From positions 1 through 64,000 of the IMG/VR virus record IMGVR_UViG_3300018962_000001: a DNA stretch of 64,000 nucleotides; one strand, written 5' to 3'. Each line of letters starts with the position of its first letter. Positions within the stretch are counted from its first letter, which is position 1. The notes under the pieces were generated by a model, which saw nothing but the letters and a program-made list of their open reading frames with translations, ran no database searches and had not been told where the DNA came from. The stretch comes from a virus. The position numbers and the translations under genes were made by a program. Shown piece by piece: positions 3,525 through 50,355 of this stretch.

Positions 3525-4949
3525 CTAGAGTCCGACAAAATCTTGGAGGGCGTCGGCAATGTCCTCGTCCAGGGGATCAATGGATTGAGCATCACCATCG
3601 AGATAATTGCAGAGGTAGCGAGTCGTGTCCATCCCGTGGTCATTTTCCTTGATCGGTACTTCTCGCACGGGCCGCCCTTCTCGACCTTGTGGATACACAT
3701 AGAGATCGAATTCCTGGGTGGTTTCCCACGGATGGTTCTTTTTCTCAAGCTCATCATCTTTCTCGACCAGGGCATAATCAAGAAAAAAGAGCCGGGGGCG
3801 CTTATCGCCCGCAACGCGCAGACGACCCTGCACTTTTTGAATCCCGATCTCAATGCGTTTGTCAGCGGGAATATTGGGAATGCCCTCGGCCTCCAGGGTT
3901 TCCCGGCCTTCGCGATCCCAGTCGCAGATAGTGGTTTCAATCGACTCGCCCTCGCTGAGCGCCACAATCAACTTTGCGTGATCGGACACGAGCCGCTGGC
4001 TCATGTAGATCTCGCGGTAGCGGTACGCACGGCCATCCGGGTCAATCGCCCACCACTGACAGACGAATGGGTGCATGAACCCAAAGTCGATGACGCGGAT
4101 ACGTCGCCACTCACGCGGAATCGGGTAGTCGCTGGGCAAGGTGTGGACACCACGTTGAAACTCATACACCGCCCCTTCGGCAGCGACCCATCGCCCATAG
4201 CGCAGGCGATCTTTGCGCACGCCAGTCAACCGATCCAACCGGGCGATGTAGAGTTCTCCGTAGGGCGTCCAGTGCTCCTCGATCTGATTCCACAAGCGCG
4301 GATTGTCGGTGTGCTGTGCGGCGATCATCCGACAGTCTCCGCGATCGCAGCGTTGTTTCAACCAGTGCGTGGGCGGACCGGGGTTACAATCGGCCATGAT
4401 TTGCTGATAGTCCGCCATCCCGTTGCGCAACCGGGTAGTCAGCGACTCCCAATCCTCGGCGGTCAGCTCGGTGGCTTCCTGGACGTAAATAAAATCGTAC
4501 TCGGTCGACATGATCTTGGTGGATTTGTCGATGCCGCCGACATTAAGCATGGAGCCGTTCGGATAGCGATAGCTCTGGCGAATATTGCGCTGCCGGGTGC
4601 CAGCCAGGGGATGGCCGGGTCCCAGCACATGATCTTCAAAGGTTTGGAGCGCGGATTCAGACACGGATTCGCGCGTTTTACGGATGATCAGCCCGCGCGA
4701 TCGGGGATAGCGACGCCCCAGCAACCAGTGGAGCTTTTCCAGGGCCGCACGACTCTTGCCGGTGCCTGCCGGACCACTTAAGAGGACTTCGGGATCACGC
4801 GATTCTTTGAGATCCCACGCCGCGCCATACGGGTGATACTGGCGGTGCTGCGCGCCCTCTTTACGCTTCTGCTCCAGCGTGGCCCGCGCCACATTGCGCG
4901 GCGTCCACCGGGGCAGGGCCGGTTGTTTGGGAGATGATCCGATCGCCAC
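3525..4949 (-). CDS. terL: terminase large subunit
   Basis: 474 aa DNA-packaging motor ATPase and nuclease. The N-terminal ATPase domain has Walker A GPAGTGKS at 59-66 and a Walker B-like FIYVQEATEL at 153-162, with E158 as likely catalytic Glu. The C-terminal RNase H-like nuclease has candidate metal ligands D288 (VIDFG), D343 (ICDWDREG) and D437 (NDHG). Length is normal for the family. GTG 4949 is the first possible start after an in-frame stop. It follows the small subunit gene by 25 bp and is the last gene of the late leftward block; no portal gene is found next to it. Confidence 0.93.
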   Translation of the reverse strand: MAIGSSPKQPALPRWTPRNVARATLEQKRKEGAQHRQYHPYGAAWDLKESRDPEVLLSGPAGTGKSRAALEKLHWLLGRRYPRSRGLIIRKTRESVSESALQTFEDHVLGPGHPLAGTRQRNIRQSYRYPNGSMLNVGGIDKSTKIMSTEYDFIYVQEATELTAEDWESLTTRLRNGMADYQQIMADCNPGPPTHWLKQRCDRGDCRMIAAQHTDNPRLWNQIEEHWTPYGELYIARLDRLTGVRKDRLRYGRWVAAEGAVYEFQRGVHTLPSDYPIPREWRRIRVIDFGFMHPFVCQWWAIDPDGRAYRYREIYMSQRLVSDHAKLIVALSEGESIETTICDWDREGRETLEAEGIPNIPADKRIEIGIQKVQGRLRVAGDKRPRLFFLDYALVEKDDELEKKNHPWETTQEFDLYVYPQGREGRPVREVPIKENDHGMDTTRYLCNYLDGDAQSIDPLDEDIADALQDFVGL

Positions 4950-35094: not shown

Positions 35095-35400
35095 ATGCAG
35101 CAGGCAGAAGGGACGACGATGGATCAAACGCTGGAGGGAGTGCTCGCGGCGCGGCAGGCAATCTTAGTCGGCCTGATCGCCCAGCGCGATGATGGAACCA
35201 AGCCGCTGGCCGAGCGGATTGCAGCGGCGCGTGATGCCTTTGGGATTCTCAAGGGAGATTATTACCAGGGGCGCGTTTCATACGAAACGGCGGCGGCGGC
35301 GGCGCGCATCCACCTGGAACTCGGCAATCAGGCCCGGACGGCACGCGGCGCGCGGCCTGTCCGCATTACCCCACTGACGATTTCGATGCAGATGCGCTAG
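35095..35400 (+). CDS. hypothetical helical protein
   Basis: 101 aa, helical. ATG 35095 follows ACAAGGAGGCAGAGAC; a second ATG at 35119. Ala run at a CGG tract (35288-35304). The last 35 bp overlap the convergent PLP-enzyme gene. Confidence 0.78.
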   Translation: MQQAEGTTMDQTLEGVLAARQAILVGLIAQRDDGTKPLAERIAAARDAFGILKGDYYQGRVSYETAAAAARIHLELGNQARTARGARPVRITPLTISMQMR

Positions 35401-36148
35401 ACAGGAGCGCACGACCCGCAGCGGTCGGCGAGGGACCGAGGACGTTCCAAAACAGGACGCGCCCGGCCCCTCGTCGTTGGCGGCAGATCTGCCAGGCTTT
35501 GCGGTCGTAATTGGGGCAGGAATCAAAGGGCACCGCGATCTTCAATTCTTTCTCAAACGGCAACGCATACTCGATTACCGTGGCGCGACCGGGATCATCC
35601 ACATGCCGTCCGACCTGCACGGCATAAAAGCGGGCAGCGGGCATACCGGCTTGCAGTCCCCGCGTTAACACCCCCGATCCCGCCGCCGACCAGACCTCAT
35701 CAAACGGGCCATAGGTCTCCCAGACCTGCCGCGCCGCCCGTGCAATCGCGGCGTGCGCCCCCGCTCCGGCCCCGCCGAACTCCATATAGTGCGCGCCCTG
35801 CTCCTTGCAGTAGAGCTGGCATTTGGCCTGCACATGACTCAAGTAGCCATGTGGAACCTGGAAGATCCGCGCGCCGAGGGCTTTGGCTTCGAGCGTGCGC
35901 GGATGTGGCTCCTTGCGCTTTGCCACAAAGATCGTCGCGCGGCGGCCTGTGATCCGCGCACAGGCCGCCAGCGCCAGCTGTGCGCCGCCATACGCGGGCG
36001 AGGCATAGGCCACTTCCGCGTAGCGGGTAAACAACTGGATGAGATACCGCCCTTTGGTTCCCCCCGGCAGGCGATCGTCGCGAACCACGGCAATGCCCTG
36101 ATGATCCTCGACGATCGGCACGGTCTCATAGATCGCAGCAGTGGTCAT
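35366..36148 (-). CDS. PLP-dependent fold II enzyme (ACC deaminase / D-cysteine desulfhydrase-like)
   Basis: 260 aa, shorter than the usual 320-340. GGTKGRYL near 29-36 puts Lys32 as the PLP Schiff-base residue (compare GGNKxRK), SPAYGGAQ near 50-57 replaces SxQSNH, and AAGSGVLTRGL is the PLP-phosphate loop. Such enzymes act on amino acids such as Cys, Ser or Thr. It overlaps the ParB-methyltransferase gene by 4 bp, which suggests a joint role, perhaps DNA modification. Substrate unknown. Confidence 0.82.
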   Translation of the reverse strand: MTTAAIYETVPIVEDHQGIAVVRDDRLPGGTKGRYLIQLFTRYAEVAYASPAYGGAQLALAACARITGRRATIFVAKRKEPHPRTLEAKALGARIFQVPHGYLSHVQAKCQLYCKEQGAHYMEFGGAGAGAHAAIARAARQVWETYGPFDEVWSAAGSGVLTRGLQAGMPAARFYAVQVGRHVDDPGRATVIEYALPFEKELKIAVPFDSCPNYDRKAWQICRQRRGAGRVLFWNVLGPSPTAAGRALLSSASASKSSVG

Positions 36149-38277
36149 AATTCCTCGCCATAGCGTCCTTCCGGCACCACCGGCGCGGCATGCCACGCTC
36201 CGGCGGACTGAATCGCGGACGGAATCGGATCAGCCACCGTGGGATCGGCAGCGGAGTCATCATAGGTGCCGGTCGGCACCTCGGCTCCGGTTTCCTCATC
36301 CACTTCGGTATCGTCCTCAATGTCGCCAAACTCGACCGGCCCGACCCACTCGGTCGCCTTGCGCCAATCGCCCTTGATGAAAATGAGGACGTTCTGATGA
36401 CTCTTACCCAACTTCCTCGCTTTTTCAAACTGACGCCCCACGCGCACGGCCAGCGATCCGATCGGCGTGACAAAGATGGCCTCATTATACAAGCGTGCCC
36501 CGGCATCTTCAAACGCCTGGATCGTGTGGCTCACAAAGTTGTGGTAGTGGCCGTCTTTATCGCGGACATCGCCAACCACAAAACACGCAAAGCGATCGGG
36601 CCGCAGCCGGGCGACCGCATGCGCGATAATTTCTCGGTAGATCGTGTGAAAATCCGCATAACTCATATTAGAAATATCACGGGGATCGTCCGAATAGACC
36701 TCCAGATCGGCATAGGGCGGACAACTGAAAATCAGATCAGCCTCAAAGTCCGGCCCCACCAGATCCGGCAACGTCCGCGAGTCGCCGCAATGCCAGATCG
36801 GCGTCGGGTCATCCGGGCGCAGGATCGATTCGATCTGGGATCGATTCGCGGCAACCTGCTCCGGGCGTAAATCAATGCCGGTATAGTGACGGCCCAGGTA
36901 GCCTGCGACGATTCCACGCACCGATCCCCCGGCAAAGGGATCAAGAATCTGCCCACCTTCCGCACAGAACCAGCGATACGCCAGCTCGGTCAGCACCGGG
37001 TCGAAGACGGACGTGCCGGTTTGCGACAAGCCCTCACCGGTCTGTTGGTTTATGTAATGGTCCCTTTGGAATTCCTCGGTCGTGAGCGGGCGGCCCAACT
37101 CCCGCTCTTTTTCGCGCTTTTGCTTATAGTAGCTCGGATCACGGCCCGAATCCGAGGTAAACAGCACGCCCGATGTATCGCGGGGAGCCTGTTTGCCGCT
37201 GGTCTTCATCCAGGCAGAATTCGGGCCGCCGCCGCCGCCGGGCGTGATCGCCTTTTCGCGTCGCCGGGCCTCACGATCGGTCCCCTCGCCTTCGGCCATG
37301 CGTGCCGAAAGTCCTCCGCCCCCGGCAGCGAGGCGATTGGACCCAGAAATGCCCTTGCCGTTGCCAATCGTATGTTCGCCCTTCATCAGATCTTGCCCGA
37401 AGGTGCGGCCATAGGACCGGGCCGCCCGTGCGCCTTGGGGCGAGTGCGCGTCCTCCCCGTCGCTGTCCGGCGGCGCATCAGCCTCTGCGCCGTCATGGTC
37501 CAATCGAGCCGCATACGCCTTCCGATCCCGGCGATACAGCTCCGATTCGCCACTGAGATTCTGGAGATTCGGGCCGCGCCCCAGCTCGCTCTGGATACCG
37601 AGTTTTAGCCAGGCTTTCTTGCGATCCGACCAATATCCTTGGCGGGCGTCGAGCACCGAGAAGGGCGGTACGCCAAACCGATCCGCCAGGGTTGCGCGCG
37701 CGGCTTCGGTGCTGGGCGTCGGAGCGGTCGCTGAGGAATCCGATCCAGAGTCATCCTGCGATTCCAGGTGCTCCAGCATATCGATCAAGGCCCGATCTTC
37801 GGCGGCCAGCTGGTCGTACAGCTCGGTATATTGTTCCTCGTCGCGAACCGCCAACGCGGCGATCGGGTCGAACGTCATCAAGGCCAGACGTTCTTCTTCC
37901 TGGCTGAGATGGACATAGATGACATCGATGAGCGGCAACCGGCGGCGCTGCGCGAGACTGACCCGGAGATGGCCGTCCACGATAAAGCCGGTTACCTCAT
38001 TGACGATGATCGGGGCGATAATCCCGATCCGGTTCATAATTTCCGTGAGGGCATCTTGTTGAATGCGAGTATGGATGCGCCAGTTTTCCGGGTGATTCAG
38101 CAGCGTATCCGGCGGTACCTTGACGAGCTTCACGATCTTGCTTTCCCACAGGGCGGCAAAATCGTCCGGGTCCGCCTGTTGGTGGGCCAGAATCTCGTCG
38201 ACGCGCTCCTCGCTGAGATCATGGATCTCAATCACGGGATGATCCGTGTCGTCCGATTCGGGGGCATGCGTGGTCAT
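36145..38277 (-). CDS. ParB-domain / DNA methyltransferase fusion
   Basis: 710 aa from ATG 38277 (MTTHAPESDD). Residues about 45-150 are a ParB/sulfiredoxin-like domain with IIVNEVTGFIVDGHLR as its nucleotide-binding core. Residues about 400-640 are a beta-class amino-methyltransferase: DPFAGGSVRG as motif I near 440 and SCPPYADLE as motif IV near 516, where SPPY-type motifs modify cytosine N4 or adenine N6. A Gly/Arg-rich linker joins them, with a five-Gly run from a CGG tract at 37224-37240. Probably protects phage DNA from restriction. Confidence 0.9.
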   Translation of the reverse strand: MTTHAPESDDTDHPVIEIHDLSEERVDEILAHQQADPDDFAALWESKIVKLVKVPPDTLLNHPENWRIHTRIQQDALTEIMNRIGIIAPIIVNEVTGFIVDGHLRVSLAQRRRLPLIDVIYVHLSQEEERLALMTFDPIAALAVRDEEQYTELYDQLAAEDRALIDMLEHLESQDDSGSDSSATAPTPSTEAARATLADRFGVPPFSVLDARQGYWSDRKKAWLKLGIQSELGRGPNLQNLSGESELYRRDRKAYAARLDHDGAEADAPPDSDGEDAHSPQGARAARSYGRTFGQDLMKGEHTIGNGKGISGSNRLAAGGGGLSARMAEGEGTDREARRREKAITPGGGGGPNSAWMKTSGKQAPRDTSGVLFTSDSGRDPSYYKQKREKERELGRPLTTEEFQRDHYINQQTGEGLSQTGTSVFDPVLTELAYRWFCAEGGQILDPFAGGSVRGIVAGYLGRHYTGIDLRPEQVAANRSQIESILRPDDPTPIWHCGDSRTLPDLVGPDFEADLIFSCPPYADLEVYSDDPRDISNMSYADFHTIYREIIAHAVARLRPDRFACFVVGDVRDKDGHYHNFVSHTIQAFEDAGARLYNEAIFVTPIGSLAVRVGRQFEKARKLGKSHQNVLIFIKGDWRKATEWVGPVEFGDIEDDTEVDEETGAEVPTGTYDDSAADPTVADPIPSAIQSAGAWHAAPVVPEGRYGEEL

Positions 38278-38287
38278 GGAACACTCC

Positions 38288-38674
38288 TTAGCGATCGAAG
38301 GCAGGCAAGACACCGGGCGTCGTTGGCGAGTCTGGAGGAAAGCGTCGCAGAAGATCGGCCAGCATCCCCTGAGTCGCGGCAAGCTGCGCTCCCAGCTCGG
38401 TCAGCTGGTCCTGCATCGCATCATCACCATCTCGACTTTGGGGAGAATCTTTGAACCGAAACCACCGCGCCAGAACGATAAACGCGCCGACCTGATGATA
38501 TTCGGACGCGAGGTTTTCAAAGGTCGTGGTGAGAAAATCAAGCCACCAGGGGGCAAGGTGCGGTGGGTAGCCCTCCTGCTGCCAATAGGTCAACATCGCA
38601 TGGGTGGCCCAGGTCAGGAGCCACCCACCGAGATACATCCAGCCTAACGAGTACTCATGCCAGAGGCGTTTCAT
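38288..38674 (-). CDS. membrane protein with coiled-coil tail
   Basis: 128 aa. N-terminal hydrophobic segment (about residues 10-29), a second amphipathic region near 60-72, and a helical C-terminus (LTELGAQLAATQGMLADLLRR). Part of the leftward membrane/lysis block. Might be an accessory lysis protein. Confidence 0.75.
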   Translation of the reverse strand: MKRLWHEYSLGWMYLGGWLLTWATHAMLTYWQQEGYPPHLAPWWLDFLTTTFENLASEYHQVGAFIVLARWFRFKDSPQSRDGDDAMQDQLTELGAQLAATQGMLADLLRRFPPDSPTTPGVLPAFDR

Positions 38675-38873: not shown

Positions 38874-39003
38874 CGTCCTCCTCAGAATCATCGGCGAAGC
38901 GTACGGCATCGGGTTCATCGGGGAAATCGGTCGCGCCGGTGGCGCGATGAGAGATCAAGGTCGTCAAGCACCCAACGCGGGGATCAAGGGTCCGGTTCGG
39001 CAC
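38674..39003 (-). CDS. possible acidic protein, doubtful 3-prime half
   Basis: 109 aa from GTG 39003, which follows AAAGGACCGGAGCCAC. The first 40 residues are plausible (SEEDDDD acidic stretch) and fill a 110-bp gap. The second half lies entirely inside the 38655-38873 gene in another frame and looks like an out-of-frame Arg/Pro shadow. It may be a short gene, or the gap may be a leader. Confidence 0.3.
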   Translation of the reverse strand: MPNRTLDPRVGCLTTLISHRATGATDFPDEPDAVRFADDSEEDDDDTRRAWTYARSPRFADRRGASSGDGRRGTPAPRTPRTPDQPARKRADPRGHHRSRADRSRRGVR

Positions 39004-39802
39004 GTGGCTCCGGTCCTTTCTGGTCGGCAGAATCATCGGGAACCGGACGCACCGCCAGGCCCGGCGTCGCCCAGGCGCGCACTTCGTCCTCAACCGGCTC
39101 CCCACGGAGCCGAAGAATCCCGGTGAACTTCGCGCCATCCGTGGTGCGCAGCTGGGTAACGGTCAGCTCCAAGCGAATCTCGGCTCCGGCTTTGGTTAAT
39201 CCGACCACCGCGATGGGGCGGCCCAGAATAGCGCTTTCGCCCGTGAGTAGATACCGCCGAACCCCCCGCTCATGGGCTACACGATAGCGCTCCGGCATCA
39301 AGCAGGTTAGCGGCTCGCCGATCATCTCACGTGCGCTATAGCCAAACAAGAGTTCAGCCCCTGGCGACCAGGATCGGACTCGCCCCTCGCGGTCCATACT
39401 GATCACGCCATCCAGGGCCGGATCAACCGCGCCTTGGCGGCGGCGGCGGAGTTCTTGGAACAGGGCGACTCGTTCCAGACGATCCAGCAGGGTCGATGCG
39501 ATCATGGCGATGCCAATCAGGGTAAACCCAAACGCAATGAGGTAGCGCACCTCGATCGGCGACGGCGGCATAAACAAGAGCACTACGCCAATGACCAGGA
39601 CAATCAGGGTCACCGTGAAGCGGAACAGGACATTGCGGAGATTTCCGATCGCAACAATGCGCTTCCCGCCATTCACACGGGCGCGCTCAATCAAGAGGAA
39701 GTCCGTCACAGCGCACCACAACCCCCAAGCATTCAGTGCAACGCCCAGGATCGCAGCCACGATCTGGAGTACCTCCGGCCACGGGATCAGCTCAGGTCTC
39801 AT
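38984..39802 (-). CDS. membrane protein with C-terminal PAS sensor domain
   Basis: 272 aa from ATG 39802, which follows GAGGAGTCCGATC. Three TM segments (about 11-32, 61-79, 87-106), a short coiled linker, then a PAS domain (about 126-235) with DGVISMDREGRVRSWSPGAE and LFGYSAREMIGEPL, followed by a disordered tail. There is no kinase, HTH or cyclase output. The membrane part matches the separate protein at 40329-40802. It sits in the lysis block, so a sensor-gated membrane protein that times lysis is an attractive but untested idea. Confidence 0.87.
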   Translation of the reverse strand: MRPELIPWPEVLQIVAAILGVALNAWGLWCAVTDFLLIERARVNGGKRIVAIGNLRNVLFRFTVTLIVLVIGVVLLFMPPSPIEVRYLIAFGFTLIGIAMIASTLLDRLERVALFQELRRRRQGAVDPALDGVISMDREGRVRSWSPGAELLFGYSAREMIGEPLTCLMPERYRVAHERGVRRYLLTGESAILGRPIAVVGLTKAGAEIRLELTVTQLRTTDGAKFTGILRLRGEPVEDEVRAWATPGLAVRPVPDDSADQKGPEPRAEPDP

Positions 39803-40001
39803 GATCGGACTCCTCATGGTACCGCGCGTGGAGGGCGACCTGGCGCTCCACTTCCAACGCTTCTAACCGCACGGCTTGTTCTTCTTGCTGCTGGCGAAGA
39901 CGGCGCTGGCTCCGCCAGGCATCGAGGGCTTGGGGATCGGCGTGCCGTGGGGTGATGGGCTGCCCCAAGATCCAGCCTAACAACCGTAGCAACCGTAACA
40001 T
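39792..40001 (-). CDS. small protein with coiled-coil
   Basis: 69 aa from ATG 40001 (MLRLLRLLGWILG), a hydrophobic start that may insert in or lie on the membrane, then a Gln/Glu/Arg-rich coiled coil. A longer start at 40112 is possible. It overlaps the PAS protein gene by 11 bp. Spanin- or accessory-holin-like topology. Confidence 0.65.
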   Translation of the reverse strand: MLRLLRLLGWILGQPITPRHADPQALDAWRSQRRLRQQQEEQAVRLEALEVERQVALHARYHEESDHET

Positions 40002-40062
40002 GGGCGTTTCCCAATACCAGCGAGATTGCCGACTTTGCTTCAGGGCTGGTGGCGAAGCGGGT

Positions 40063-40332
40063 CTAATCTGTGCCACGGCGGCGCTCCTCGTGATTTGGGG
40101 GCGTGCTGTCACGGGGGACCGAGCGGGTGACGCGCTCGGCTAAGCCGAGCGCTTTATCTGCCGCAAGCGTCCCGTTCAAGGCGAGTTCGCGCCACTCGGT
40201 AAGTTGGGTCTGCAATTCGGTATATTGCCACCCAAAGACCCACCATTTTTTATGCCCACCGATGAGGATCAGCAGCGCAATGACCGGCAGGCCGCCCTGA
40301 GAAATAAGATTCCAAATGTCGGCAATGGTCAT
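40063..40332 (-). CDS. single-TM holin-like protein
   Basis: 89 aa from ATG 40332 (an ATG at 40341 is too close to the ribosome-binding site AAGGATC). One TM helix at about 12-26 (GGLPVIALLILIGG), then KKWWVFGWQY and a charged helix. Similar single-TM phage proteins often accompany lysis genes. Exact function unknown. Confidence 0.75.
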   Translation of the reverse strand: MTIADIWNLISQGGLPVIALLILIGGHKKWWVFGWQYTELQTQLTEWRELALNGTLAADKALGLAERVTRSVPRDSTPPNHEERRRGTD

Positions 40333-40802
40333 GTCCCCCATGATCCTTCATCTTTCTGGGATGGCCGACCCTGCGGGGGGTTTGCAGTCCCGGCCACGGG
40401 AGTTCGTCCCAGTTCTTCGCGGATCAACGCCCGCCGGTCGCGTCGATCCAATAGGGCATCGACCACAATCCAGATCTCGGCAAGCACCAATAACCAGCGA
40501 CTAATGGATTGAGTCAGCGATGCGTTGGTCCCAATCCGCGGAGGGACAAACATTTGAATCACCCCAATCGTCGCAAGGACGAGCAGAATCACCAGAAAGG
40601 AGCTTGCCTTGCGAAGATTGCTGTGAATGATAATCTTCACTGATCGGGCGATCGGAACCCCAGATTCTTCGGCGTCTGCAAGGGCATAGCGCCGATCACC
40701 CCAATAGTCAATCACTAAAAGCAGATTGATGCCCAGACCGAGCAGGGCGATCAAGGTCCAGAGTACCTCCAGAAAGTCAACGGTGCGGGTAAGTACGAGC
40801 AC
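40329..40802 (-). CDS. three-TM membrane protein, paralog of the PAS protein's membrane domain
   Basis: 157 aa. TM segments at about 10-32, 66-86 and 95-115. Shared landmarks with the 38984 protein: NLRKASSFLVILLVLATIGV against NLRNVLFRFTVTLIVLVIGV, FVPP against FMPP, and LLDRRDRRAL against LLDRLERVAL. Soluble tail after 120 is disordered. Likely derived from one ancestral holin-like protein. Confidence 0.82.
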   Translation of the reverse strand: MLVLTRTVDFLEVLWTLIALLGLGINLLLVIDYWGDRRYALADAEESGVPIARSVKIIIHSNLRKASSFLVILLVLATIGVIQMFVPPRIGTNASLTQSISRWLLVLAEIWIVVDALLDRRDRRALIREELGRTPVAGTANPPQGRPSQKDEGSWGT

Positions 40803-40989
40803 GGGTCGAATCTCCTTTCCTCCGCGCCTGGAGGCGCGCTTCTTCAGCCAGAGCGGCTAACCGCGCGTCAATCATGCGTTGGCGTTCGCGCGCGCGTGCG
40901 CGCGCAAGATCATCTGGCGTCGGCCCTGAATCGGTGGGCGTAGGTCGGTGGAACAGCTGCCGCAGCCATGTCAGCACTACGTTGCGCAC
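40777..40989 (-). CDS. small helical protein
   Basis: 70 aa from GTG 40989, positioned just after the stop of the nuclease gene with GAGGGTGAT upstream; an ATG at 41034 inside the previous gene is the alternative. Hydrophobic start (VVLTWLRQLF), then an Arg/Ala-rich helix. Confidence 0.6.
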   Translation of the reverse strand: MRNVVLTWLRQLFHRPTPTDSGPTPDDLARARARERQRMIDARLAALAEEARLQARRKGDSTRARTYPHR

Positions 40990-40990
40990 A

Positions 40991-41512
40991 TCACCCTCGA
41001 TCCGGGAGGCCGACGAGCGCACGCGCCTGAGCATAGCCAGCCGATCCTCGATACCATTCTCGATCTGGTGGAAACCCAAAGCCCCAGTTCTGGGTCGCTT
41101 CCTGAACCCCCCGCATGACCTGCACAACATCCATCAACGACTCCCAGGTCACGAGGGACGCCGGATCGGCGTGCACAGGCAGGGTGCGTACCTCGCCAAG
41201 CCAGCGGGTAAAGGTCCGCCGTTGCGGATCGCGATACGATCGCAGCACGGCAGGCGCTCCGACCGGCAGCACGCCGCGCAACATGGTTTGCGCGGCGCGA
41301 CCCGCCTCACGCTCGGCAGCGGTGCCCCGGCGGCTTTCGGGCGTTTGAAGTCCCAGCAACCGAATCTCGATGTCCAGGGCCACTTCAAACCCCGGCCCGC
41401 CCAGAACATACACGGAGTCGCCATCGACGACCTCGGTGATCACCACGCGATAGATGGGCCAGGGCGCGACGGCTTTCAACGCAGCGGGAAACAGATCAAA
41501 CGGTCGAGGCAT
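40991..41512 (-). CDS. staphylococcal-nuclease-like (SNase) protein
   Basis: 173 aa from ATG 41512 (MPRPFDL). SNase OB-fold features: VVDGDSVYV near 28-36, IRLLGLQTPES near 50-60, then an Ala-rich helix with Glu (AAEREAGRAAQTML). The last catalytic Arg may be R101 or R104 in RRTFTRWLGE. No signal peptide. Could degrade host DNA, or be a virion-associated nuclease. Located between a large putative virion protein and the membrane block. Confidence 0.8.
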   Translation of the reverse strand: MPRPFDLFPAALKAVAPWPIYRVVITEVVDGDSVYVLGGPGFEVALDIEIRLLGLQTPESRRGTAAEREAGRAAQTMLRGVLPVGAPAVLRSYRDPQRRTFTRWLGEVRTLPVHADPASLVTWESLMDVVQVMRGVQEATQNWGFGFPPDREWYRGSAGYAQARALVGLPDRG

Positions 41513-41529
41513 GCTATGCCTCCTTTCGG

Positions 41530-42585
41530 CTAAGGAATCTCCTGCGCGGGGGGGAGGGCAGGAACAGTGATCGGCGGACTGGCCGGAGCCTGTTCGAGTC
41601 GATGATGGACCACGGCGCGGCACCAGCGCTGGTAGAACAGGTCAAACAGTTCGCGCGCGTCCGGCGCATACGCCTTGGATCGATCGAGCCAGGTACGGAG
41701 CGTCGCACGGGCCTGCGTGCGGGCGATCTCGACCATCTGGCCGCGGAGCGTGTCGACAATCTGGGCGGCGATCAGATCGGGAGTACGGGCAGCAAGGTCG
41801 GCTAACGCTTGCTCAATCCGCGCACGCAAGTCATCGGGAAACACCGGACTCGTCTGACCGCCGGTATGCGCGCGGTACCGATCGATCCACCACGGGTTCC
41901 CAAACTGCCACAGGGCATCAGGAAACTTCGCCCACAGCACGCCCGCAATATGATCGTCGCTCACCGGCGACACCGCCGGAAGCTGGGCAATGCGAGTCTG
42001 TGCGTCGGCGGCGAGATCCTTGGCATAGTTGGCCCGCTCCACGGCATAGCTGGCCTGCTTCGCGGCGTCCGTTGCCAGCGTTCGGGCAGTGGTGGCAAGC
42101 CCCCGCGCCTCGGCGTCAATCGCCGGGCCAGGCGCGGGGGCTGACCCTCCTCCGCCCCCGATAGCCTCAACAAAGTGCGGCACCGACTCAAAATGACGAG
42201 CCCCAGCGGGATCGGTAAAGGCCATCTGGAGTCCCCAACCAGGCTGGTACGAAAGTTGGCCGCTTTCTTGGCGCGGGGTGACAAACTGTGCCCCCGCAGC
42301 ACTTTGACGCACCACATACCAGCCAAACTGGTTGTTGTCTTTCGGCGCATGGGCCTGGAAGAAAAACCCACTCCAAAAGATCGCGCCATCTGCCGATCGG
42401 TATGCGGCCTGCTGGTGCCCATACGTGGCATAGGAGGATGGTGATCCAATTCCCGCCTGCGCCGGACGCGGACGGTCGCCGTGGATCGCCTGAAGCTCCT
42501 CGGCAAAGCGGAGCATGGCATACTCCGCGGGATCGATCGCGGTAAATCCCGCTGGGGTATCTAACTGGAGGGTTGGAGCACTCAT
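41530..42585 (-). CDS. large hypothetical protein, possible virion or tail fibre component
   Basis: 351 aa. N-terminal beta-rich domain (residues 1-140, aromatic, ending HFVEAIGGG), a Gly/Ser/Pro linker (GGGGGSAPAPGPA), a long Ala-rich helical segment (155-200, ATTARTLATDAAKQASYAVE), and a helical C-terminal domain. It directly follows the amidase with a 4-bp overlap. Could be a tail-tip or fibre-associated protein; no homology recognised. Confidence 0.75.
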   Translation of the reverse strand: MSAPTLQLDTPAGFTAIDPAEYAMLRFAEELQAIHGDRPRPAQAGIGSPSSYATYGHQQAAYRSADGAIFWSGFFFQAHAPKDNNQFGWYVVRQSAAGAQFVTPRQESGQLSYQPGWGLQMAFTDPAGARHFESVPHFVEAIGGGGGSAPAPGPAIDAEARGLATTARTLATDAAKQASYAVERANYAKDLAADAQTRIAQLPAVSPVSDDHIAGVLWAKFPDALWQFGNPWWIDRYRAHTGGQTSPVFPDDLRARIEQALADLAARTPDLIAAQIVDTLRGQMVEIARTQARATLRTWLDRSKAYAPDARELFDLFYQRWCRAVVHHRLEQAPASPPITVPALPPAQEIP

Positions 42586-43745
42586 GATCCACCTTCCGGC
42601 CAGAAAACGCGCGCACCCGTCGCTGCGGTCCAGGCAATAATGCAGTGTGCAAAGACCTGATAGGTGGTCGAATCAATCAGGACTTCCGGGGCGGTTGCCG
42701 GGCCGGGATTGCGTCCGGCATCGACCAGCTCGCGCCACAAGCTCGCAATCCCCCACTCGGCAATATACGGAGCCTCCGTGCCCCACAGGCCGTGATAATC
42801 AGCCATATCATCGCTCCAATCGGTAATCCAGCGGCGCATGGTCAGGGCATCGGCGAATGGATTATTGGCCCCATCGCCGACCGGACTCCAGATGCACCGC
42901 ACGGTCGCAAGTTCATCATTGCCACTTGGGAAGTAGTCAGGTTTCTGCTCCAACCGATCCAGCACATCGTCCAGCGAATCCAGCCAGGAGTGAAAGACCG
43001 GCCAGCCCTCGACGGTGGCACGGACTCGACCGGGATTCATCGGCGTGCGCACATTTCCCCAATTCAGGGTGCGCGTCGCCACTCCCTCGGTGCCAAACGA
43101 CGATTCCTTCCCAATCAACGCCAGGATCGGACCCGGTTTGATTTTGCGCCGGAGAACGCGCGCGTAGCCATCCTGCGCATCCTCTGGCGACAGGATGGGC
43201 CGGAGCGCCCGAACCCACGGACTCAGGGGAATGTCGGGTGGCCCCCGAAGCTCATAGGGCGTCTGAAAACACAGATCGCGGAAGCTTGCCCAAAATGGGA
43301 AGTCGGTCGGATCGGTACGCGGCCCATTCAGCGAGGCAGGGCGACCCGCGGCGATGTCTTGGTGGCGCAGCAATCGCGGAAGCCGCAACGTTTGGCAGTC
43401 TCCCCGAATGACCTGGAGGCAGCGGGCGAGGTGTTCCGGGGACCAGCGTTCCCCCTTGCGATGCCCGATTTCCCAACCGACCCACTGGCTATTCCAGTGA
43501 TTACTCCAGGAATCAGACGCCGCGAGGCGTCCCCACCCCGCATGGTAGGCCACATGGCTCAGGGGGACCATCTCATACACGATGCCCTTGCGGCGCGGGA
43601 TGTACTTATGAATGCTGACGTTGGTGGTCAGGGCGGCGAGATCGCCCGGCTCGTGGCCCTCGGTGGTATGCACAATCCCACCGAGGGTGACCTTGCGCGG
43701 CCCACTGGTCGGTCCCCGTTTCGAGGTATTCACGCGGTAGTTCAT
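42582..43745 (-). CDS. endolysin: N-acetylmuramoyl-L-alanine amidase with C-terminal second domain
   Basis: 387 aa. Residues about 15-155 are an Amidase_2 (PGRP-like) zinc amidase: IVHTTEGH with His26, AYHAGWG with His68 and a late catalytic/zinc region HQD...TDPT near 128-148. Residues about 200-330 resemble a glucosaminidase or lysozyme-like domain: GKESSFGTEG near 212-221 with E214 as candidate acid, and NWGNVRTP. It would cut peptidoglycan at two bonds. No signal peptide, so holin-dependent release is expected. The holin-like gene lies 3 bp upstream. Confidence 0.88.
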   Translation of the reverse strand: MNYRVNTSKRGPTSGPRKVTLGGIVHTTEGHEPGDLAALTTNVSIHKYIPRRKGIVYEMVPLSHVAYHAGWGRLAASDSWSNHWNSQWVGWEIGHRKGERWSPEHLARCLQVIRGDCQTLRLPRLLRHQDIAAGRPASLNGPRTDPTDFPFWASFRDLCFQTPYELRGPPDIPLSPWVRALRPILSPEDAQDGYARVLRRKIKPGPILALIGKESSFGTEGVATRTLNWGNVRTPMNPGRVRATVEGWPVFHSWLDSLDDVLDRLEQKPDYFPSGNDELATVRCIWSPVGDGANNPFADALTMRRWITDWSDDMADYHGLWGTEAPYIAEWGIASLWRELVDAGRNPGPATAPEVLIDSTTYQVFAHCIIAWTAATGARVFWPEGGS

Positions 43746-43748
43746 CGC

Positions 43749-44126
43749 TTAGCCCTCCGGGATCGGATCATCCGACCTGGATTCAGTGGTGGACTCAGGA
43801 GCCGGGCGGCGGCGGCGGCGGTTTTGACGGCCTGCCGCCGCCTGGCTGGTGCTATTGAGTCCCGTCGCCGTGAGCCAGGCGCTGATGCTGGTAATCCCGA
43901 TCTGTGCCCAGGTTTGCCGAGTCCACGGATCGTCCACGGGCAGGGTTGCGGCAGCGAGAATGATCGTGAGCAGGATAGAGAGGCCCAAACCACCAAAAAA
44001 GGCGACCCAGCCCGGTCGTTCGGGCCAGTACATCGTTAACCCATTAATGGTGGCGAAAATAACCGCCGCGATCGACGATGCAAAAAGACCGATCTCGCCA
44101 GCCGTTTGAATTAAAGAACTATCCAT
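43749..44126 (-). CDS. holin-like membrane protein
   Basis: 125 aa from ATG 44126, following CGGAGGAATGGT. Three hydrophobic segments (about 9-28, 34-54, 66-84) and a very basic C-terminal tail (RRRRR from a CGG tract at 43805-43821), the usual topology of phage holins. It precedes the amidase by 3 bp. First gene of the leftward lysis block. Confidence 0.82.
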   Translation of the reverse strand: MDSSLIQTAGEIGLFASSIAAVIFATINGLTMYWPERPGWVAFFGGLGLSILLTIILAAATLPVDDPWTRQTWAQIGITSISAWLTATGLNSTSQAAAGRQNRRRRRPAPESTTESRSDDPIPEG

Positions 44127-44231
44127 ACCATTCCTCCGCACGGTTGGCGGGGCATGCGCGAGGTGCGCCGGTGGGGGCTGGGCACAACACCTCTGGGGGG
44201 CGCGGCAGTCACCGCAGGTTGTGTTCTTGCA

Positions 44232-44237
44232 AGTGTA
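44232..44237 (-). promoter_or_regulatory. possible extended -10 for the lysis block
   Basis: TGTGGTACACT on the minus strand gives an extended -10 (TACACT 44237-44232) without a good -35. It lies in the 244-bp gap between the holin start and the divergent regulator gene. Apart from the rightward promoter, nothing else is recognised in that gap. Confidence 0.3.
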
Positions 44238-44290
44238 CCACAGCCAAGCAGCATGTTGCACGCCACGAGCGAATTGATGGCGGTGCTGTA

Positions 44291-44319
44291 TTGACATGGG
44301 CAGATCAGCGCGCTATACT
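44291..44319 (+). promoter_or_regulatory. promoter of the HTH regulator gene
   Basis: TTGACA (44291-44296), spacer TGGGCAG...GCGCGC, TATACT (44314-44319). Long leader of about 45 nt to ATG 44371. Same family as the early promoters, so the regulator could control itself. Confidence 0.85.
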
Positions 44320-48435: not shown

Positions 48436-48459
48436 CCATTGAGCAGCGTGGAGGCTTTG

Positions 48460-50355
48460 ATGAAGTGTTTGGTTCTTCGTTCCCTGATGCTGGTCAGCGT
48501 GCTGGCCCTACTGATCAGCATCTCGTCCACCCACCCCCCAATCGCCCGCGCGGCATCCGCGAATTTACTCTGGAAGCCGTATTTACAACAACTGACCGAT
48601 ACCGGCGTGGTCGTCCGGTGGACGACCAAAACAGGAACGACCTCGGTGGTCCGCTATCGAACCGGGAGCGACGCGCTCGCCTCGGCATCGGGCACGCCAC
48701 GGACGATTGCCGCCTTGGGCGCGCAGATGCATCGCGTTGCGTTAACCGGCCTGCGTCCGAACACGACCTATACGTATGAGATCGTCACCGATGGAGAAAC
48801 GTTGTGGCCGGACGGCGTGATGTCCTTCCGCACCGCTCCCGCGCGCGGGAGCGGCACGCCGGTCACATTTGCCGCGTTTGGGGACATGGGCAAAGGCACG
48901 ACGAGTCAACGCCTCCTGCGGGATCAGATGGCTGCCGACTCGTTGTCGTTCGTGCTGTCCACGGGCGACAACGCCTATGATGCCGGAACGTATGCGGAGT
49001 TTGACACAAAGGTCTTCCAGATCTACGGCGACGTGTTCTCCAGGGCAGCGTTCTTTCCGACTCTGGGCAATCATGACTATGCAACCAGCAGTGGTGCCCC
49101 GTATCTCGATCTCGTCAGCCTGCCGTACCAGGCGCTGCGCGCGAGTGATCACGAACGGTATTACTCGTTTGACTATGGCAATGTGCATGTCGTCGCTCTC
49201 GATACGAATGCTCCCTTGAATGTGACCGATAGCGCCGCGACCGATGATATGTTTGACTGGCTGCGGGCGGATCTCGGGGCGACGCAGCAGCCCTGGATTA
49301 TTGCGGTCACGCATCATGCGCCGTACTCGACGGGATCGCATGGGTCGGACGCGCGCGTGCGATCCAAGTTGGTCCCGATCTTTGAGCAGTACGGCGTCGA
49401 TCTGGTGTTAAGCGGCCATGATCATATTTATCAACGGAGCAAGCCGCTGCGCGGCGGCGTGGTGACTCCGATTGCGCAGGGCGGCATTCCCTATATTGTC
49501 ACGGGCGCGGGTGACGCCGCATTGTATGCCTGCGGGACCGCCGAGTGGGTTGTCGTTTCGTATTGCGCGAAGCCGTATGGAATCTATAACCGTATCCGCG
49601 TGGCAGGCGATCAGCTGGTGATTGAGGCGATTGATAATACCGGCGTGCTACGGGATTCCTATACGATGGGAGAGGCAACGCCGCCGCCGGGCATTCCCGT
49701 GCCCGGTACGATCCAGGCCGAGGACTATCGTGTTGGTGGGCCACAGGTAGGCTACGCGGATAGTACCGCAGGGAATAGTGGCGGTGTGTATCGCACGGAT
49801 GACGTGGACATCCAGGCAACCAACGATCCGGCGGGTGGTGGCTACAATATCGGGTGGATGACCGCCGGGGAATGGCTGGCGTATGACATCGAGGTGACCA
49901 CGCCGGGAATGTATCAGCCGTCGCTTCGCATCGCGACACCGCATAGTGCCCGGCAGGTGAGTCTGGTCGTTGATGAAGTCAGCTCGCCCCCCGTGATCCT
50001 CCCCACGACGGGTGACTGGCAAACCTGGACCACCGTTCGCGCCGATCCGATCAGCCTTACGGCTGGGCGGCATACGCTCCGCATGGTGGTCGATACCCCC
50101 AGCCAGAACATAAACTGGATTCGCCTTGATCTGGTCCCGCCAACCCCGACTCCCGCGCCAACCCAGACCGCAACGGCGACGACCGTTGCCACGGAGACCG
50201 TGGAGCCAACGGCCACGGCGACGGTGACCGCTTCCCCGACGAGGACGCCCACTCCTACGGTCGCGCCAACTTCGACCCCTGTGGTCTTGCGGTTCCCACT
50301 GGTGACCGATCCCTACCCGCGTCCTGAGGAGCCACCCCCGTATCCCGCCCCGTAG
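48460..50355 (+). CDS. secreted purple-acid-phosphatase-like enzyme with CBM6-like domain
   Basis: 631 aa from ATG 48460 (GTGGAGGCTTTG upstream; a TTG at 48439 is rejected). Signal peptide about 1-31. Domains: fibronectin-like N-terminal domain of purple acid phosphatases (35-125), metallophosphatase (130-390) with FGDMGKG, STGDNAYD, LGNHDY, THHAPY and SGHDHIYQR, a CBM6-like beta sandwich (415-545, starting IQAEDYRVGG), then a Thr/Pro-rich linker. It would release phosphate outside the cell. Odd cargo for a phage, and likely of host origin. Confidence 0.9.
   Translation: MKCLVLRSLMLVSVLALLISISSTHPPIARAASANLLWKPYLQQLTDTGVVVRWTTKTGTTSVVRYRTGSDALASASGTPRTIAALGAQMHRVALTGLRPNTTYTYEIVTDGETLWPDGVMSFRTAPARGSGTPVTFAAFGDMGKGTTSQRLLRDQMAADSLSFVLSTGDNAYDAGTYAEFDTKVFQIYGDVFSRAAFFPTLGNHDYATSSGAPYLDLVSLPYQALRASDHERYYSFDYGNVHVVALDTNAPLNVTDSAATDDMFDWLRADLGATQQPWIIAVTHHAPYSTGSHGSDARVRSKLVPIFEQYGVDLVLSGHDHIYQRSKPLRGGVVTPIAQGGIPYIVTGAGDAALYACGTAEWVVVSYCAKPYGIYNRIRVAGDQLVIEAIDNTGVLRDSYTMGEATPPPGIPVPGTIQAEDYRVGGPQVGYADSTAGNSGGVYRTDDVDIQATNDPAGGGYNIGWMTAGEWLAYDIEVTTPGMYQPSLRIATPHSARQVSLVVDEVSSPPVILPTTGDWQTWTTVRADPISLTAGRHTLRMVVDTPSQNINWIRLDLVPPTPTPAPTQTATATTVATETVEPTATATVTASPTRTPTPTVAPTSTPVVLRFPLVTDPYPRPEEPPPYPAP

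Follow-up and report, generated by a model that had tools for sequence, protein, structure and literature searches.

A phage three-transmembrane protein carrying a FixL/DosP-type PAS domain and its PAS-less paralogue, encoded in a gene block with an amidase

The locus analysed here raises the question of whether a phage may attach a sensor domain directly to a membrane protein of its lysis block. An initial annotation had described two of its products, named here B1 and B2, as paralogous membrane proteins of which only B2 carries a PAS domain, and had proposed that a holin or antiholin gated in this way could couple lysis timing to redox, light or ligand. The window covers positions 1 to 64,000 of an IMG/VR virus record that is 204,685 bases long. 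The record is that of a tailed phage, based on its terminase large subunit (TerL), whose best named relative is the TerL of Thermobifida phage P1312 (50% identity), on the detection of a DnaB helicase gene, and on very long minus-strand open reading frames (ORFs) of 2,576 and 1,991 aa beyond the window that, judged by length only, look like tail genes.

Gene context of B1 and B2

Both genes had been placed correctly, the ORF list giving the same boundaries (Table 1), and they belong to a dense minus-strand block of overlapping genes that also encodes an amidase, a weakly matching holin candidate, a nuclease and a protein with one transmembrane helix (TM). The description of this block as starting with a holin and an amidase holds in part: the amidase, whose gene lies in this block about 1.8 kb upstream of B1, is well matched (PF01510, E 1.4e-10), but the holin match (PF07332, E 0.007) is sub-threshold, and the real start of that candidate is probably an internal ATG. 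Given that the nuclease and a DUF6766 protein are also present, the block is not purely a lysis cassette.

The start of B1, a GTG at 40802, is preceded by AAAGGAG, and that of B2, an ATG at 39802, by AGGAG at a distance of 7 nt. A second in-frame ATG lies upstream of B2 at 39817 (MRSPIM...), with the sole clear ribosome-binding site (AGGAG) serving 39802; the two in-frame ATGs (M-R-S-P-I-M) are formally alike to the dual start of lambda S. B2 is a single open frame with a steady GC3 (0.73 in the TM part, 0.70 in the PAS part).

Other features of the surroundings were recorded as well. The two small basic ORFs that each overlap the start of one paralogue may represent a duplicated partner gene; the similarity between them is not significant (shuffle p about 0.04 and 0.11). 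A ParB-like and DNA methyltransferase fusion (36145-38382, minus strand) is followed by a threonine-dehydratase-like protein (35366-36196, minus strand), and the same two neighbours were seen in a viral contig (L004), adjoining a terminase-like gene. On the plus strand, positions 48439-50355 encode a purple acid phosphatase that looks secreted and has carbohydrate-binding modules; its tail, rich in Pro and Thr, is of a kind associated with Chloroflexota, a possible hint to the host.

Table 1. Positions of the features discussed, in the window unless a contig (L) is given
Feature	Position	Strand	Evidence or remark
Terminase large subunit (TerL)	3525-4949		
128-aa protein just downstream of B2, part of DUF6766 (residues 46-90)	38288..38674	-	PF20554 E 1.4e-7
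B2, 272 aa, three TM and cytoplasmic PAS, no output domain	38984..39802	-	ORF, SD, PF00989, AlphaFold (pLDDT 80.7)
B2 residues 124-232, FixL/DosP-type PAS	39107..39433	-	Pfam, PDB sequence, NCBIfam, AlphaFold, fold search
B2 His177, ungapped to SmFixL His194 / BjFixL His200	39272..39274	-	PAS alignment
B2 residues 1-118, three-TM domain paralogous to B1, predicted N-out/C-in	39449..39802	-	Alignment, AlphaFold helices
Small basic ORF directly before B2	39792..40112	-	ORF; overlaps B2 start by 11 nt
One-TM protein, 92 aa, predicted N-out/C-in	40063..40341	-	Start overlaps B1 end by 13 nt
B1, 157 aa, three-TM paralogue without PAS, predicted N-out/C-in	40329..40802	-	ORF, topology, low-confidence AlphaFold (three helices)
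Small basic ORF directly before B1	40777..41130	-	ORF; overlaps B1 start by 26 nt
Nuclease, phage endonuclease family	40991..41623	-	phrog_452 E 1.1e-9
N-acetylmuramoyl-L-alanine amidase, endolysin candidate	42582..43745	-	PF01510; phrog_1794 (lysis/amidase)
Holin candidate directly before amidase	43749..44297	-	PF07332 E 0.0068, sub-threshold
Bacterial two-TM and PAS proteins	L035:1129-1854; L047:1174-1845; L052:1486-2091		
Cellulophaga phage one-TM proteins with PAS-like fold	L060:39102-39620; L061:3703-4425; L063:3411-4046; L064:4094-4723		Annotated hypothetical

Paralogy and predicted topology

The proposed paralogy between B1 and the N-terminal part of B2 (residues 1-118) was recovered with BLASTP (28% identity over 74 aa, pairwise E 3e-6), and a search of B2 against the entire 204,685-base record returned B1 as the only match (E 1.1e-4). 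Their Smith-Waterman score of 83 has a z of 9.0 against plain shuffles; when shuffling preserved the hydrophobic pattern, z was about 7.6-8.1, and 0 of 2,000 and 0 of 1,000 shuffles reached the score. The shared landmarks pointed out earlier (NLR, F[VM]PP and LLDRxxR, the last within LLDRxxRxALxxE) align between the two proteins, and the similarity stops at about B2 residue 118, with the PAS domain starting at about residue 124. Judged from these alignments, the TM parts of B1 and B2 are divergent paralogues.

Structure prediction, named at the time as a check on the pair, gave three long helices for each protein. For B2 the TM helices span residues 8-43, 49-76 and 83-125 (pLDDT 80.7 overall, about 95 in the PAS domain), the third being continuous to residue 125, directly before the PAS domain, whereas the helices of B1 (residues 2-46, 52-85 and 93-133) come from a model of low confidence (pLDDT 66). 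The B2 structure was built without B1 in the PAS alignment, where it had been misplaced, and the B1 model, made without relatives, was too uncertain for a fold search.

In both proteins Lys and Arg are frequent in the TM1-TM2 loop and behind TM3, but not at the N-terminus or between TM2 and TM3 (in B2, loop 1 has 6 K/R and 1 D/E and the linker after TM3 has 6 K/R). Following the positive-inside rule, this distribution indicates an N-out/C-in orientation and a cytoplasmic PAS domain in B2. Hydropathy and charge therefore predict for B1 and B2 three TM helices in the N-out/C-in arrangement, which is the definition of a class I holin (PMC9636201; PMC9671378). Searches of Pfam and PHROGs and fold searches did not connect the TM part to any known holin in sequence or fold, with the B1 model being uncertain.

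The PAS domain of B2

PF00989 matches B2 at residues 123-230 with an E value of 4.3e-8 (33.6 bits versus a curated cut-off of 22.6) and has no further match in the 204,685-base record, in keeping with the earlier observation that the PAS domain is found on B2 only. That B2 has no kinase or other output was likewise borne out, as the Pfam profile search identified neither a kinase nor any other domain beyond the PAS. The eight best PDB sequence matches are all heme PAS domains, namely FixL (1d06 from SmFixL, E 2.5e-14; 1y28, 1dp6 and others) and 10jx, listed in the fold search as a heme-binding PAS; DosP ranks after these eight, with the structural-genomics PAS 3lyx in between. The NCBIfam FixL model matches B2 over the PAS domain only (E 7e-15). 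The predicted PAS structure superposes on BjFixL heme domains with an rmsd of 1.1-1.2 A and a TM-score of 0.91-0.94 over about 103 residues, and the best ~29 matches of the fold search are heme PAS domains or full-length DosP. By these sequence and model comparisons, the B2 PAS is of the FixL/DosP type. Since these best sequence and fold matches are heme PAS domains or DosP, with LOV domains ranking lower, the light-sensing reading put forward initially is disfavoured, and a gas or redox stimulus is the favoured one.

The alignment to the SmFixL PAS is ungapped, with 37 identities in 108 positions. B2 residues H177, R183, I192, L213 and V215 align with His200, Arg206, Ile215, Leu236 and Ile238 of BjFixL and with His194, Arg200, Ile209, Leu230 and Val232 of SmFixL, and are thus kept or conservatively replaced. 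H177 lies within model helix 171-187, at the heme-ligating position of helix F-alpha; in FixL this histidine (His194 in S. meliloti, His200 in B. japonicum) is the proximal heme ligand (PMC10765370). The control set consisted of 37 full-length FixL-like PAS domains, most of them from bacterial genomes of one phylum. As 35 of the 37 have the equivalent histidine, H177 is a mark of the subfamily, and it was rejected as proof of heme. FixL Arg220, reported to be important for O2 sensing, is replaced by Ile197 in B2, and FixL Tyr203 by Gly; an Arg at the Arg220 position is present in 15 of the 37 control domains, and the heme domain of BjFixL R220A has been solved (1y28). Altogether, we consider it fairly probable that the B2 PAS binds heme. 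Beyond the initial annotation, the PAS domain is now assigned by sequence to the FixL/DosP type, with the heme-ligating histidine position at H177, and the observation gains strength, since a candidate cofactor and a single residue to mutate can be proposed for the sensor.

Possible roles and comparison with known systems

Gene context and predicted topology make a role of B1 and B2 in lysis plausible. Our leading explanation, held tentatively and at somewhat less than even chances, is that the two are duplicated holin-like proteins of the lysis block, with B2 as an antiholin or co-holin whose effect on B1 or another holin is gated by its sensor. The paralogy, the FixL-type PAS, the predicted class I topology and the context of amidase, holin candidate and one-TM protein speak for it, as do the actinophage cassettes with several holin-like proteins and the gene order of viral contig L005 (both described below). 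Against it stand the separate holin candidate before the amidase, the occurrence of H177 in most relatives, the loss of Arg220 and Tyr203, the lack of similarity to known holins, the failure to find a second phage with the fusion, the dissimilar three-TM protein of a contig with a related TerL (see below), and the nuclease and DUF6766 protein in the block.

Under this explanation a gene for a holin-like three-TM protein would have been duplicated to give B1 and B2, and B2 would then have gained a cytoplasmic FixL/DosP-type PAS, probably heme-binding, right where the shared three-TM domain stops. As the third TM helix continues unbroken to the PAS domain, a ligand- or redox-dependent change in the PAS dimer could pass through the TM3-PAS helix and alter which partners the TM helices of B2 take (B2 itself, B1 or the protein of the holin candidate gene at 43749-44297), so that the lysis threshold would be raised or lowered. 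Heme binding, co-expression with lysis, heteromer formation and the direction of the effect are the steps that we infer. A more specific version is doubtful: a duplicated holin of class I kind would have captured a FixL-type heme PAS, and the lysis clock would be coupled directly to oxygen, NO, CO or redox, with neither transcription nor a kinase involved.

The PAS domain could instead be a ligand-free dimerisation module, leaving B2 as a constitutive holin or antiholin whose PAS sets oligomer size only, which we regard as unlikely, though worth keeping in mind. PAS domains commonly dimerise, and the loss of the regulatory FixL arginine and the lack of an output domain in B2 are consistent with such a module. 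FixL itself forms dimers (PMC10765370). A mere dimerisation module, however, would not need a heme-ligating histidine and hydrophobic distal residues, both of which are kept. Slightly less credible is that B1 and B2 serve the membrane in a different way, such as superinfection exclusion or membrane remodelling, and are found in the block by happenstance; the nuclease and the DUF6766 fragment in the same block and the lack of similarity to known holins would fit, but the class I topology, the overlap with the one-TM gene and the closeness of the amidase suit lysis better. Still less likely, B2 might be a membrane decoy whose PAS pairs with FixL-like sensors of the host or mimics bacterial membrane PAS proteins, changing host physiology and not lysis. 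Cellular genomes often encode FixL-like PAS domains (120 of 150 sampled in one phylum) and bacteria have output-less two-TM and PAS proteins, yet in its TM part B2 is similar to phage B1 and unlike those bacterial proteins, and the place beside the amidase would be left without explanation. Finally, spurious similarity arises easily among TM proteins and B1 and B2 share only 28% identity, but a compositional TM similarity combined with an artefactual PAS fusion is barely credible, given that pattern-keeping shuffles never reach the score and that B2 is one open frame of even GC3.

The reading of B2 as a holin-like lysis-block protein with a sensor domain, its link to lysis drawn from context, remains plausible. 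The phage lysis clock responds to environmental conditions (PMC9636201), and our searches gave no other protein of a lysis block in which a cytoplasmic domain is devoted to sensing a ligand. Should B2 gate lysis, a single protein would link the sensing of gas or redox state to the bursting of the cell, a modular holin-sensor fusion would have been gained, and it would be testable whether phages of low-oxygen hosts delay or hasten lysis by oxygen.

A search for the same fusion in other phages, also suggested initially, found no second phage with it in the viral contigs or in 50,697 phage records. Pattern scans of the viral contigs with B2, B1, the B1 and B2 alignment and the PAS alignment identified no relatives, and since these scans reach close relatives only, absence from the viral contigs is not proven. 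Neither B2 nor B1 retrieved relatives from the 50,697 phage records, where a match to the TM part (E 6) was rejected as chance, and FixL-like PAS domains were found neither in these records, with B2 (E 0.1) and cellular PAS (E 0.01) as queries, nor in PHROGs. A profile of the TM pair had no match in the PDB, in 111 Deinococcota genomes or in related phage loci; relatives sought through the amidase and threonine-dehydratase-like neighbours were not obtained, and searches with the ParB-methyltransferase and TerL led to short contigs without B1 or B2.

Membrane PAS proteins without a kinase are not unique to this phage. Several bacterial genomes encode stand-alone proteins of about 200-240 aa that share with B2 membrane helices followed by a FixL-like PAS and no output domain; they have two TM helices, their TM part is unlike that of B2, and they belong to cellular genomes. 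Short phage proteins with PAS-like folds were also listed in a fold search of viral models. Assigned from length and position, these include Cellulophaga phage phi18:3 gp090 (172 aa), encoded two genes ahead of the endolysin, and phi19:1 gp108 (240 aa), within a run of small membrane proteins leading to a lysozyme; a homologue in phi38:2 (gp11) directly precedes an L-alanoyl-D-glutamate peptidase, and in Nekkels_1 a homologue precedes the lysozyme by a few genes. Like B2, the phi18:3, phi19:1 and phi38:2 proteins are short, membrane-anchored and kinase-less, with a PAS-like fold and a place near an endolysin or lysozyme. They differ in having one TM helix and a PAS-like part that is probably periplasmic, and show neither a Pfam PAS match nor sequence similarity to B2. 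By charge they look N-in with the PAS-like part outside and may therefore be spanin-like and not sensors; they are possibly a spanin-like or a sensor family, and are a lead, not B2 homologues.

Actinophages are known to have cassettes with several holin-like genes next to the endolysin (PMC9671378), and LysF1b and LysF1a of F1 mycobacteriophages jointly set lysis timing. In the Gordonia and F1 mycobacteriophage cassettes, as here, the endolysin is accompanied by a number of small TM proteins, among them one-TM N-out/C-in proteins, which the one-TM protein overlapping B1 resembles (those of Gordonia and LysF1b). In the Gordonia survey, TM genes of one cassette never belong to the same family (PMC9671378), a pattern from which the paralogous B1 and B2 depart; the term "PAS domain" is absent from its text. 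A viral contig with a related TerL (L005) has the gene order 3TM-1TM-lysozyme, and its 3TM protein was rejected as a homologue of B1 or B2, having no sequence similarity. As a separate observation, in Thermobifida phage P1312 a gene annotated as "sensory protein kinase CreC" (L006:25530-25973) directly precedes the amidase; with one apparent N-terminal TM helix and no kinase, its product is probably a misannotated lysis-cassette protein.

Compared with class I holins of the lambda S105/S107 type, B1 and B2 share the predicted three TM helices, the N-out/C-in topology and the place beside the endolysin, but are larger and without sequence similarity, and B2 adds a sensor domain of 109 residues. 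The B2 PAS shares with FixL and DosP the fold, the heme-ligating histidine and an ungapped alignment, and in SmFixL a membrane anchor precedes the PAS domain as in B2; B2 differs in having no kinase or phosphodiesterase, an Ile in place of Arg220, and a TM part paralogous to a phage protein. VqmA of vibriophage VP882 is, unlike B2, a cytosolic transcription factor for a quorum-sensing signal and not a membrane protein of the lysis block, but, as would be the case for B2 under our proposal, it is a phage-encoded receptor linking a ligand to the lytic programme.
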